A DNA stretch of 64,000 nucleotides. It comes from Arcticibacter eurypsychrophilus (GTDB taxonomy: Bacteria > Bacteroidota > Bacteroidia > Sphingobacteriales > Sphingobacteriaceae). The first letter of the stretch is position 1. Each line of letters begins with the position of its first letter. The position numbers and the translations under genes are program-made. The notes beneath the pieces are model-generated. The model saw nothing but the letters and a program-made list of their open reading frames with translations, was not told where the DNA came from and made no database searches. Below, one piece after another: positions 19,162 through 37,755 of the stretch. Location of the stretch: positions 62,001 to 126,000 of the forward strand of contig NZ_MDFN01000014.1 of assembly GCF_001730525.1 (NCBI RefSeq), in the 5' to 3' direction.

Positions 19162-20571
19162 CTATAATGCGACCTTTTTTAATTTTGTGATCAATTCCTC
19201 TTTTGTCAGCGACTCTTGTGTTCCCTGCTGCATGTTTTTTAATGTCAGCTTCCCTGATAACATTTCATCACTTCCGATCAGCACAACATAGGGGATATGT
19301 TTGTCATCCGCATAAGACATTTGTTTTTTCAACTTTGCAGCCGAAGGATATAACTCTGCAGCAATATTTTGATCCCGTAATGCCTGGATGATCGGCAACG
19401 CATACTGCTCAGCCTGTTCATCGAAATTGGTAATCAGTACTTCGGTTGTCGAAGAAGTGCCCGCAGGGAAAAGGTTAAGTTCTTCCAGTACATCATAGAT
19501 TCTATCCGCTCCAAAAGAGATTCCAGCACCCGTTAATCCTTTGAGGCCAAACATGCCCGTCAAGTCATCATAGCGGCCACCACCACCAATACTTCCCATT
19601 GCAGCTTCATTTGTTTTCACTTCAAAGATAGCGCCGGTATAATAGTTTAATCCTCTCGCAAGAGTGATATCAAATTCTAAAAATGAGGACAGCTCTTCCG
19701 AAGTCCAAGCCGTTAGTTTTTTTAAGTAATTGATGATTAATTCAATTTCTGCAATCCCTTTTAATCCAATTACAGATGTTAAAAGGACCTTTTTTAATTC
19801 GGACAGCTTATCTTCTGTAGATCCCTGTAATAGAATTACCGGTTTCAACTGCTCGATGTCCTGCTCTGTAAAACCTCTTTCCAGCAGTTCTTTGGTAACG
19901 CCTTCGATACCGATTTTGTCGAGTTTATCAATCGCCACCGTCATGTCTACAATCAGCTCAGGTTTGCCAATAATTTCAGCAATCCCGGATAGTATTTTCC
20001 GGTTGTTGATCTTGATCGTGAAGTCTTTTAGTCCCAATAAGGACAATGCTTCTTTGTAAATCAATACAAATTCAGCCTCATTCAATAAACTTTCGGAACC
20101 CACTACATCAGCATCACATTGATAGAATTCCCGGTAGCGGCCTTTTTGCGGGCGGTCGGCACGCCATACCGGTTGTACCTGGAAACGTTTAAAAGGAAAT
20201 GAAATTTCATTCTGGTGCATCACCACGTACCGGGCAAAAGGAACCGTCAGGTCATAACGTAATGCCTTTTCTGAAATCAGGGGCAACAACGATTTAGAGG
20301 TGTATACAAAATCAGCCGACTTTTGCTTTTTACTCTCAGGGTCTGTCCAAAAATCGCCACTGTTCAGCATTTTGAAGATCAGCTTATCGCCTTCATCGCC
20401 ATATTTGCCGGTCAGGGTGCTCAGGTTCTCCATAGAAGGAGTTTGAATTTCCTGATATCCATATTTACGGAAAACCGATTTTATGGTATCAAAAATATAA
20501 TTACGCTTCACCATTTCTGGTGGCGAGAAGTCTCTTGTGCCTTTAGGAACAGACGGTTTAATGTTCGCCAT
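19162..20571 (-). CDS. hisS: Histidyl-tRNA synthetase
   Basis: The 469-residue class II synthetase begins with [16 protein letters not shown]. It has motif 2 [23 protein letters not shown] (about residues 125-150), a histidine-binding [15 protein letters not shown] segment and motif 3 [10 protein letters not shown], followed by an anticodon-binding domain ending in TKLKKVAL. It charges tRNA-His in the cytoplasm. The gene appears monocistronic. A TAnnTTTG element overlaps its start region, and a large repeat palindrome lies about 230 bp upstream. Confidence 0.97.
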
Positions 20572-20583: not shown

Positions 20584-21130
20584 CGAATTGCCTGCTTAAT
20601 TCAGGTACGGGTGGAAGGATCGAAATGGATTAATGCAGTCTGGAAGATACAATTGAAATAATATTATCCAGATATAGAGATAAAGCTGTAATGGTATTAG
20701 TTAGTTTGCAAAACAGATTGCAACAGTATAAATGGATATCAAGTTAAGACAAAGCTTAGATCAGATTATTATCTGTTTACCCTTGATGCCAGAGTGAGTG
20801 TACGGTGACGCCACAGTGAGGCCACCTTTTTGCGTTAAAACGTGGCCTCACTGTGGCGTCACGGTGGCCTCACCGTGGCATCACCCTTAATCAGACCACT
20901 AGCTAATCTTAATTTGACTAGTTACTAAATACTTGAATTTAGTTAAAAAGGATAAAGAAAGATCCAGTGGTTTTCCTTCGAAAGTAATTCATGATGTTCA
21001 TTTTAGGATATTTGGACGTGGCTTAGAGTAGCATTTCGTAAAAGTAGCCAATACTGATAATAAATAGGCGCTATCATCGCAAGTTGGGACCTTGAACAAT
21101 TTTATAATGAAACAGGACCAAAGTATTAAA
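20584..21130. other. Intergenic region between hisS and the HxlR regulator
   Basis: About 550 bp with no convincing gene. The 11-bp repeat palindrome at 20782-20885 is its only strong feature. The rest is AT-rich, and no T-tailed hairpin was found just past the HxlR stop. Confidence 0.5.
20782..20885. repeat. Palindromic array of phased 11-bp repeats (GTGGCNTCACN)
   Basis: Four tandem 11-bp units run from 842 to 885 past 20000: GTGGCCTCACT, GTGGCGTCACG, GTGGCCTCACC and GTGGCATCACC. Facing them, in the same 11-bp phase, are inverted units at 20804-20814 and 20815-20825, and two decayed ones at 20793-20803 and 20782-20792. The central arms 20805-20825 and 20842-20862 form a perfect 21-bp inverted repeat around a 16-nt spacer. 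The block is GC-rich inside AT-rich intergenic DNA between hxlR and hisS. It could be a protein-binding array (one unit per helical turn), a large RNA hairpin or a mobile repeat; the sequence does not decide. Confidence 0.85.
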
Positions 21131-21487
21131 CTACCTTTCCGATTTTAGCTTTTCCCGATGCATGGTTCCCCAGTCTCTCAAGGAGTCTAATACGTCATCC
21201 AGCGTATCCGCATAATGAGTAAGCTCATATTCGACTACTACCGGAGTTTGAGTATGTACAATCCTTTTTACAAACCCATTCATTTCGAGTTCCTTTAGTT
21301 CGCTTGACAATACACGTGCAGAAATACCCTCTACCGTACGCTGGATTTCGTTAAAACGCTTATTGTCTTCCCTTAAGGCTACGATTACACGCAGTTTCCA
21401 TTTACCACCAATAACATAAAGCGCGTCGCCAATTGCGGTAAGCGATCCCTTGCATTCTTGTGCTGTGACCGGAGTTTTAAGCTGCAT
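21131..21487 (-). CDS. HxlR-family (DUF24) winged-helix regulator, likely redox/quinone sensor
   Basis: The 118-residue protein is a typical HxlR/DUF24 regulator. Cys12 lies just before the first helix (CKGSLTAIGDALYVIGGKWK), and the winged helix carries RFNEIQRTVEGISARVLSSELKELE. Homologues such as YodB and HypR of Bacillus use an N-terminal Cys to sense quinones or disulfide stress and control azoreductase genes. This gene diverges from an azoreductase gene around a perfect 18-bp inverted repeat that is its probable operator, so it likely represses both itself and the enzyme. Function by homology is strong; the signal is inferred. Confidence 0.9.
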   Translation of the reverse strand: MQLKTPVTAQECKGSLTAIGDALYVIGGKWKLRVIVALREDNKRFNEIQRTVEGISARVLSSELKELEMNGFVKRIVHTQTPVVVEYELTHYADTLDDVLDSLRDWGTMHREKLKSER

Positions 21488-21504
21488 AATTTTTTATATT
21501 TAAG

Positions 21505-21544
21505 GTAGTATACAAAAGGTTACTACTAACCTTTTGTATACTAC
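21505..21544. promoter_or_regulatory. Perfect palindromic operator between hxlR and azoR
   Basis: GTAGTATACAAAAGGTTA at 21505-21522 is the exact reverse complement of 21527-21544, with a 4-nt centre. Each arm contains GTATAC. The palindrome lies in the 5' leader of hxlR and just upstream of the -33 region of azoR, so a dimer or tetramer bound here could control both genes. Confidence 0.75.
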
Positions 21545-21558
21545 TAATATTATATAAC

Positions 21559-34950: not shown

Positions 34951-37755
34951 TTAATGTGCTTTGAGCCAATTTGTTCCTGAACCCATTTCTACGAGAATAG
35001 GAACAGTGGTTTTAATAGCATTCTTCATCCGGTCTTCAACAATCACTTTAACTTGTTCTAATTCAGGGATAACGACATCAAAAACCAATTCATCATGAAC
35101 CTGCATAGTCATTTTTGACTTTAGTTTTTGTTCCTTAAAATCTTGATGAATATGAATCATGGCGACTTTAATCAGGTCGGCAGCTGATCCCTGAATGGGA
35201 GCATTAATGGCATTTCGTTCGGCAAAGCCACGTACTGTAGCGTTTGCTGAATTGATATCTCTTAAATACCTTCTTCTTCCCATTATAGTTTCCACATAGC
35301 CATTCTCACGTGCAAAGTTCATGGTATCGTTCATATACCGTTTAATGCCTGAATATTGATTAAAATATTCTTCGATAATAGCAGCGGCTTCCTTTCTTGG
35401 AATATTTAAACTTTGTGAGAGGCCGAAAGCAGACTGTCCATAAATAATTCCAAAGTTTACAGCTTTTGCATTGCGGCGCTTGTTTGAATCAACCTCTTCC
35501 AGCGCAATACCATATACTTTGGCAGCAGTAGCGGTATGAATATCTAATCCCTGAGCAAAAGCATCCATCATATTTTCATCCCTGCTAATTTCCGCGATCA
35601 GACGTAATTCAATTTGGGAATAATCTGCAGAAAGCAGGATATGGTTTTCATCCCTTGGGATAAATGCTTTGCGCACTTCTCTACCTCGCTCAGTGCGTAT
35701 TGGAATGTTCTGCAGGTTGGGGTTATTGGAACTTAAGCGCCCGGTTGCGGCAACTGCCTGGTTATAGGAAGTGTGGACGCGTCCTGTTTTGGGGTTGATC
35801 AATAAAGGTAATGAGTCCACATAGGTAGATTTAAGTTTTTGCAATTGCCTGAAATCAAGTATGTCACGTGCGATATCGCTTTTGTTTGATAGTGCACTTA
35901 ACACATCTTCACCGGTTTGGTATTGCCCTGTTTTTGTCTTTTTTGCTTTAGGGTCGAGCTGCAACTTATCAAACAGTACTTCGCCAAGCTGTTTTGGCGA
36001 TGCTATATTAAACCGAACACCAGCTTTATCGTAAATAGTGGTTTCAAGAAGGCGGATATCAGTTTCCAACTGTATAGAATATTCAGCAAGAGCAACTTTA
36101 TCAATCCTTACACCTTCCCTTTCCATGTCGGCAAGGACATAAATTAAAGGTGTTTCTACGTTTCTGAATAAAGCATCGGCATTTGCAATGTGAAGCTTGG
36201 GCTCAAATACTCCTTTTAGTTGTAAAGTAATATCGGCATCTTCAGCTGCATATTCCTTGATGCGCTCAATCTCTACATCACGCATGTTTCCCTGGTTTTT
36301 TCCTTTACTCCCGATCAGTGAGGTAATTTCTACGGGCTTATAACCCAGATAGTTTTCGGACAGGATATCCATGTTATGCCTTGTATCGGGATCTAACAGA
36401 TAATGCGCCAGCATGGTGTCAAATAATTTACCACGCACATTTACACCATACCAGTTCAGTACAAGGATATCGTATTTTAAATTTTGTCCGGTCTTCTCTA
36501 TATTTTCATTCTCAAACAAGGATTTAAACTGAGAAATCAGCGCTGCTGCCAATACCTGATCTTCGGGTACGGGTACATACCAGGCGTCTGCGGTTTTTAT
36601 AGAGAAGGAGAGTCCTACAATTTGGCAATTATTAGCATCAAGACAAGTGGTTTCACTATCGAAACAAAAAGATTTAGTGGAGGATAAAATAGTTATGAGC
36701 TCTGTTATGGTTTCAGGACTGTCAGCCAGATGATAGGTGTGCGGAGTGCTTTCAATGTTTTTCATGACCAAGGTTTCCTGCTCAGGCTCTTCGATAAGCG
36801 TTTTAGGCTCTGGTATTGCTATCGGTTGTCCAAAAAGATCGGTCTGCTGTCCATACCCCAGGATTGGTGGGATTTCTTCATGAAGCAGTTCAGCAAAAAC
36901 GCGGCGTCCGATAGTCCGGAACTCCAGTTCAGCAAATAAGGGTTCAAGCAATTCTCTACTGGGAGATGAAAGGAGTAGGGCATCTTCATCTAGTTCTACG
37001 GGTGCATTCAGTAAAATGGTAGCCAGTTTTTTTGAGACAAGTCCTTGTTCGGCAAATTTCTCTACATTCTCTTTCATTTTGCCTTTCAGCTGATGACTGT
37101 TGGCAATCACTCCTTCAACGGAGCCAAATTGTTTAATCAGTATTTTGGCTGTTTTTTCCCCTATCCCGGGAATCCCTGGTATGTTATCTACTGCATCACC
37201 CCACATGCCTAAGATGTCGATCACCTGCAATACGTTCTCAATTTCCCATTTTGCCAATACTTCTGGGACACCGATAATCTCCATATCGTTGCCCATTCTG
37301 GAGGGTTTATAGACAAATATATTTTCAGATACGAGTTGTGCAAAATCCTTATCAGGAGTCATACAAAAGACAGTATAACCTGCCTTTTCAGCTTTTTTAG
37401 CGAGTGTTCCAATGATGTCATCTGCTTCATATCCGTCAGAAGTGATTACAGGGATTCTAAATCCTTCAATAACCCGGAATACATAAGGTATAGCTGCGGA
37501 TAAGTCTTCAGGCATGGCCTGCCTGTGCGCTTTATAATCAGTAAACTCAATATGTCTTTCAGTTGGAGCTTCCGTATCAAATACAACTGCAATATGTGTA
37601 GGGTTTTCTTTTTTAAGTATCTCCAATAATGTGTTGGTAAATCCCATCACAGCGGATGTGTTTACACCATCGGAAGTAAATCGGGGATTTTTGCTAAGTG
37701 CAAAATGCGCTCTGTAAATAAGAGCCATGCCATCTAAAAGAAATAATTTTTTCAT
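34951..37755 (-). CDS. polA: DNA polymerase I
   Basis: The 934-residue enzyme has all three domains. A 5'-3' exonuclease spans about residues 1-290 (EADDIIGTLAKKAE, WGDAVDNIPGIPGIGEKTA). A 3'-5' exonuclease spans about 340-520, with its metal ligands present in CFDSETT, TGQNLKYDILV and YAAEDADITL. The polymerase domain has SADYSQIELR, RRNAKAVNFGIIYG and MQVHDELVFD. Proofreading therefore looks intact, unlike in some PolA proteins. It fills repair gaps and removes RNA primers. The gene is monocistronic. Confidence 0.97.
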   Translation of the reverse strand: MKKLFLLDGMALIYRAHFALSKNPRFTSDGVNTSAVMGFTNTLLEILKKENPTHIAVVFDTEAPTERHIEFTDYKAHRQAMPEDLSAAIPYVFRVIEGFRIPVITSDGYEADDIIGTLAKKAEKAGYTVFCMTPDKDFAQLVSENIFVYKPSRMGNDMEIIGVPEVLAKWEIENVLQVIDILGMWGDAVDNIPGIPGIGEKTAKILIKQFGSVEGVIANSHQLKGKMKENVEKFAEQGLVSKKLATILLNAPVELDEDALLLSSPSRELLEPLFAELEFRTIGRRVFAELLHEEIPPILGYGQQTDLFGQPIAIPEPKTLIEEPEQETLVMKNIESTPHTYHLADSPETITELITILSSTKSFCFDSETTCLDANNCQIVGLSFSIKTADAWYVPVPEDQVLAAALISQFKSLFENENIEKTGQNLKYDILVLNWYGVNVRGKLFDTMLAHYLLDPDTRHNMDILSENYLGYKPVEITSLIGSKGKNQGNMRDVEIERIKEYAAEDADITLQLKGVFEPKLHIANADALFRNVETPLIYVLADMEREGVRIDKVALAEYSIQLETDIRLLETTIYDKAGVRFNIASPKQLGEVLFDKLQLDPKAKKTKTGQYQTGEDVLSALSNKSDIARDILDFRQLQKLKSTYVDSLPLLINPKTGRVHTSYNQAVAATGRLSSNNPNLQNIPIRTERGREVRKAFIPRDENHILLSADYSQIELRLIAEISRDENMMDAFAQGLDIHTATAAKVYGIALEEVDSNKRRNAKAVNFGIIYGQSAFGLSQSLNIPRKEAAAIIEEYFNQYSGIKRYMNDTMNFARENGYVETIMGRRRYLRDINSANATVRGFAERNAINAPIQGSAADLIKVAMIHIHQDFKEQKLKSKMTMQVHDELVFDVVIPELEQVKVIVEDRMKNAIKTTVPILVEMGSGTNWLKAH

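Follow-up and report, generated by a model that had tools for sequence, protein, structure and literature searches.

In bacteria, RAYT and its REPINs are the textbook case of one gene maintained alongside a population of extragenic palindromes. The repeat types of this system are tied to a vertically kept gene that has a copy of the repeat beside it (compare PMC8049555). An array of 11-bp repeats is also known from parC of plasmid R1, for which two such repeats are cited as the minimum (PMC9426499). Here, we analyze a palindrome made of 11-bp units that lies between hisS and the gene of an HxlR-type regulator in a 64-kb stretch of Arcticibacter DNA (the window), about 210 bp from the hisS start codon and about 240 bp from the stop of the regulator gene. 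The gene order around the copy in a sister species (G005) is the same. We tentatively favor reading this palindrome as a solo member of a Sphingobacteriaceae-specific family of directional protein-binding arrays, cognate to an uncharacterized gene (gene A) or its partner, an interpretation that is plausible but falls short of probable.

The first-pass annotation described eight 11-bp units, four in each direction and sharing one phase on each arm. The register holds, with a within-arm spacing of 11 bp throughout, but two of the eight units are decayed, leaving six intact, four on the right and two on the left (Table 1). An exact search of the 64-kb window for GTGGCNTCAC finds these six positions only; allowing one mismatch adds two sites, at 36647 and 4013, both attributable to chance. 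The decayed outer units of the left arm read GTGAGTGTAC (at 20794) and TTGATGCCAG (at 20783) and are less decayed in the sister-species version (L183), in keeping with the turnover that had been proposed for them. The perfect 21-bp inverted core was correctly described: positions 20805–20825 are the exact reverse complement of 20842–20862, and the wider inverted repeat spans 73 nt per arm at 75% (20758–20830/20837–20909). The RNA fold predicted for the palindrome has an energy of −91.1 kcal/mol, compared to −43.7 ± 4.0 kcal/mol for shuffled sequences (z −11.8), which, together with eight genomic occurrences, places the element far from chance.

Table 1. Features of the palindromic element and its neighbors (positions in the window).
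Feature	Position	Strand	Basis
Entire palindrome (type A, unit GTGGCNTCACN; solo copy)	20780–20890	.	111-bp query matches
Right arm, four intact 11-bp units at 20842, 20853, 20864, 20875	20842–20885	+	exact pattern scan, TRF
Left arm, two intact 11-bp units at 20805, 20816	20805–20826	-	exact pattern scan
Left arm, two decayed outer units	20783–20804	-	in register with the array
Conserved center GCCAC-C-TTTT-TGCGTT-AAAA-C-GTGGC	20821–20846	+	same grammar in 28 Arcticibacter copies
Neighbor hisS, histidyl-tRNA synthetase	19162–20571	-	PF13393, 1.3e-35
Neighbor HxlR-type regulator	21131–21487	-	PF01638, 2.4e-26

The conserved center contains a free loop of 6 nt (20831–20836) and a C..C mismatch at 20826 and 20841 (G..G on the opposite strand). 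The C..C mismatch is kept in Arcticibacter type A and in most Pedobacter copies; it is not universal, as copies lacking it exist in three genomes (G252, G416, and G002). In the orthologue L183, the central mismatch is G..G instead of C..C, as if the loop had been inverted. Elsewhere in the window, a hairpin of 19 pairs that runs into a T-rich stretch (21504–21545) lies between the start of the HxlR-type gene and that of a flavodoxin-fold oxidoreductase gene.

The array is not unique to this strain. A 111-bp query retrieved eight type A copies in its own genome, further copies in two genomes of the same genus (G003 and G005), and weaker relatives in G002. Searching with a covariance model made from 54 copies, own sequences included, whose E-values are rough, yielded around ten additional, more diverged copies at E < 1e-5 in the own genome, as well as seven in Pedobacter G375 and several in G001. 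These diverged copies follow the same grammar, with 11-bp units running outward from TTTT-N-AAAA, and have other unit sequences. About ten copies in the own genome are of type B (unit ATGGACTYAAC), for a total of about 18 related copies; other unit types are GTGCACTCACN (G001), GTGGGCTNACN and TCGGACTCATG (both G375), and GTGGACTNACN (G400). Many Pedobacter copies keep a 3–5 unit array on one arm only. Across 399 genomes of the bacterial family, matches to a strict core pattern were confined to Arcticibacter and Pedobacter, except for two single sites in another genus that resemble terminators. Neighboring genes of the copies are arranged in tandem, convergently, or divergently, with no convergent bias. 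Rfam gave no match in the window at the gathering score, which speaks against a known repeat family, and searches of the open-license literature yielded nothing relevant on such repeats in Pedobacter or Sphingobacteriaceae, nor on DUF6266. The conserved center, the genome-wide family, the several unit types, and the tie to the region upstream of gene A were all missing from the first-pass annotation.

A pattern scan of contigs gave related matches only in Arcticibacter and Pedobacter cryoconitis; most of its matches were perfect palindromes in Prevotella, Alistipes, Komagataeibacter, and Patescibacteria, which have no 11-bp units and were judged unrelated. Prevotella, Marseilla, and Xylanibacter carry many perfect palindromes of the form GCCACCTTTT-N6/7-AAAAGGTGGC (L061, L071, L073, L083, and similar), often adjoined by a second hairpin and again devoid of 11-bp units, which may be a dispersed family or a style of terminator. 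In Patescibacteria and Alistipes genomes, repeats of the form TTTTGGCGCCACCTTTT..AAAAGGTGGCGCCAAAA make up a family with several sites in each (L065, L067, L076, L081, L094, L110).

Comparing flanking proteins between genomes revealed one recurrent uncharacterized family, gene A, which starts 100–330 bp from the palindrome and points away from it. A strong palindrome lies within 400 bp upstream of 20 of 49 unique gene-A copies, compared to 1 of 43 downstream and a mean of 0.1 in shuffles; most copies in this count were found by protein search alone. Most other gene-A copies appear, by eye, to have a weaker AGTCC..GGACT core upstream. In a profile search that scored only six hits per genome, gene A was present in 162 of the 399 genomes, often several times. 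Exact-core palindromes and gene A co-occur in 18 of 19 genomes (p 6e-7) and, inside Pedobacter, in 13/14 against 60/104 (p 0.003), both values being inflated by species relatedness. The unit sequence varies from one gene-A copy to another, and 29 of 42 scattered palindromes best match the gene-linked type of their own genome (label permutation mean 3.6, maximum 19), including two separate types in G375; in this test, kinship inflates the statistic, and the copies of the own genome and G003, which have one common type, are indistinguishable. Of the ten type B copies in the own genome, none found a gene-linked counterpart in the set of gene-A copies analyzed. Gene-linked elements have more intact units on the gene-distal arm (17 v 7, p 0.006), which is also where the long array lies in Pedobacter; thus, the element has a direction. 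In a G001 subfamily (L319–L325), each palindrome has a conserved palindromic flank of ~180 bp and its own gene-A paralogue, resembling a multi-copy cassette. Two gene-A loci (L320 and L331) adjoin genes for proteins that look PIN-domain-like by eye and are 39% identical over 101 residues, and upstream of one gene-A copy (L356, G406) the center of the palindrome reads N.

Gene A has no Pfam or NCBIfam family, none of nine members matched profiles in either PHROGs or PADLOC, a comparison with PDB sequences returned nothing, and a tblastn search with one gene A gave no match pointing to a plasmid origin. AlphaFold models (pLDDT 83) place three strands and two helices before an Ig-like sandwich. 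Among solved structures, the fold matched generic Ig-like domains only (Z < 6), the C-terminal part resembling common Ig/FN3 sandwiches; the N-terminal part modeled alone (pLDDT 82) found nothing above Z 4.3. No recognized DNA-binding, nuclease, or recombinase fold is apparent in the models, which lend no support to a transposase and no direct support to DNA binding. In four Arcticibacter loci, the gene after gene A (gene B) is DUF6266-like (PF19781, 2.4e-20). Gene A itself scores below the Pfam gathering score for DUF6266, and in a profile comparison with the DUF6266 partners, only 33 N-terminal residues align, with a probability of 2%.

The relation between solo and gene-linked copies invites a reading as a REPIN- or MITE-like element, selfish or domesticated, that is non-autonomous and rarely copied by a trans-acting factor from or near gene A, with solo copies as its progeny. 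We consider this somewhat unlikely. Each type with one gene-linked copy and several solo copies would fit it, as would the inverted ends of Pedobacter copies (for example, GTTCGTACTGA/TCAGTACGAAC) and the long flanks that P. cryoconitis copies have in common. However, the REP-associated Y1 transposase (PF01797) was found in none of ten genomes, the own genome included, while 5 of 14 control genomes were positive, and gene A has no nuclease or recombinase fold. Descent between sister species also tells against mobility: all sixteen sites compared between the own genome and G005 (8/8 own type A and 8/8 G005) are shared, some in decayed form, with no clean empty site among them. Six of the own type A sites are intact in G005, and the other two have lost 81 and 59 bp from the center; the few sites inspected closely are central-deletion remnants or diverged palindromes rather than empty sites. 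For the other two G005 copies, the aligned sequence at the same place in the own genome is a type B palindrome with conserved flanks, a change of type and not gain or loss; at one such site (L170/L310), the loop is nearly unchanged (CCCGCT v GCCGCT). Over longer times, the picture differs. Between G003 and the own genome, which have type A in common, only the gene-A copy has matching neighbors, so the solo copies have changed places, and their differing places over longer distances make a REPIN-like origin conceivable.

The central deletions in G005 indicate instability, and palindromes can self-correct via template switching. Both would suit a functionless mutational palindrome kept by arm-to-arm conversion, which, like an ordinary bidirectional terminator, we judge highly improbable. 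As the first-pass annotation had observed, the element resembles no usual terminator: none is called at 20780–20890, there is no T-tail outside the stem, and the mixed gene contexts, some divergent, are not those of a bidirectional terminator. Elements are lost by decay, yet their unit positions are strongly conserved, and neither version accounts for the link to gene A.

In the six intact orthologous pairs of the own genome and G005, the fixed positions, nine per 11-bp unit, are identical at 309/324 (95%) and the center (T4/A4 and C..C positions) at 58/60 (97%), compared to 994/1369 (73%) in the flanks. The free positions and the loop drift at the flank rate (N6, 24/36 or 67%; N11, 28/36 or 78%; loop, 25/36 or 69%). 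Conserved unit positions beside drifting free positions and loop point to direct recognition of each 11-bp unit and not to a hairpin alone, consistent with the earlier suggestion that the phased units are candidate bound sites. Neither N11 nor the outer N6 covaries between arms, so it is the units that are conserved and not the pairs; only N6 of the two inner units covaries. As judged from these comparisons, selection, or an equivalent process, acts on each unit as sequence, and pairing may contribute something near the center at most.

A period of 11 bp per turn fits A-form RNA, and the palindrome could instead act as a transcribed double-stranded stem or an extruded cruciform, serving as a leader of gene A or, elsewhere, as an mRNA-stability or attenuation element. 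Besides the inner N6, the very stable predicted fold, the position about 100–330 bp upstream of gene A starts, and the pairing kept as all units change between genera (covariation score of 0.222 vs 0.129 shuffled) agree with this possibility. Free N11 and outer N6 positions, however, pair no better than chance, and the N11 test in particular weakens any reading by hairpin alone. The unpaired one-sided arrays of Pedobacter, the solo copies in divergent as well as other contexts, and the lack of an Rfam match also count against it. The counts of G-T (72) and A-C (55) mismatches are comparable, so there is no strong strand-specific wobble signature. We regard an RNA or cruciform role as unlikely and weaker than the REPIN-like explanation.

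The explanation that fits these observations best is a protein that would recognize the sequence of the 11-bp units, with gene A as the prime suspect. In the directional binding array that we favor, each unit, about one helical turn long, would serve as a recognition half-site, and the units running outward from the T4-N6-A4 center would place bound subunits on one face of the DNA in a single nucleoprotein complex. Each unit type would have a copy directly upstream of a gene A. The product of this gene is probably the binding protein or a partner of it, and the gene may control itself through that copy, autoregulation being the simplest role. The scattered copies, the one in the window included, would be extra chromosomal binding sites kept by vertical descent that could act on adjacent genes or on chromosome organization. 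Several points count against such an array: the modeled gene A product has no recognized DNA-binding fold, type B has no gene-linked match in the gene-A copies analyzed, a pure binding array would not need the covariation of the inner N6, Pedobacter G306 has a clear palindrome copy and no gene A match, and the neighboring genes of the palindromes show no visible regulon logic.

Carried further, the same data might reflect an undescribed gene-and-repeat system, which we think possible but rather doubtful. Non-transposase paralogues would each recognize their own 11-bp unit, be controlled through the array upstream of them, and maintain matching palindromic arrays genome-wide; as specificity shifts, both arms would change their units together, and at fixed sites, as from type A to type B. 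If true, this would be a second, unrelated gene family with a RAYT/REPIN-like arrangement and no transposase, indicating that pairing can depend on binding instead of transposition, and it would offer the first lead on what gene A and the DUF6266 partner do. Clean material for studying concerted repeat change would come from the presence of two unit types in a single genome and from the type switches at fixed sites.

Several known systems share parts of this organization. Like the R1 parC, a type II plasmid centromere with ParR iterons, the element is an 11-bp direct-repeat array, which in parC lies beside partition genes and is bound by a repeat-specific protein; unlike parC, it is chromosomal, multi-copy, and palindromic around a conserved center. 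Xer/dif sites also have inverted half-sites flanking a free 6-bp spacer, but they occur as one 28-bp site per replicon, whereas here there are 8–18 copies, and the arms carry additional outer units. Chromosomal MITEs and bacterial interspersed mosaic elements are likewise short, dispersed, intergenic inverted repeats; here, no target duplication or parent transposon was found, and positions are common to sister species. DUF6266 (PF19781) touches the system only through gene B, with gene A belonging to no Pfam family. REPIN/RAYT has in common with it extragenic foldable palindromes and a repeat type linked to one gene, which here is gene A and not a RAYT. The present family differs in having no Y1 transposase, a linked gene with no recognizable nuclease fold, about 7–20 copies per genome, and arms of multiple phased 11-bp units.
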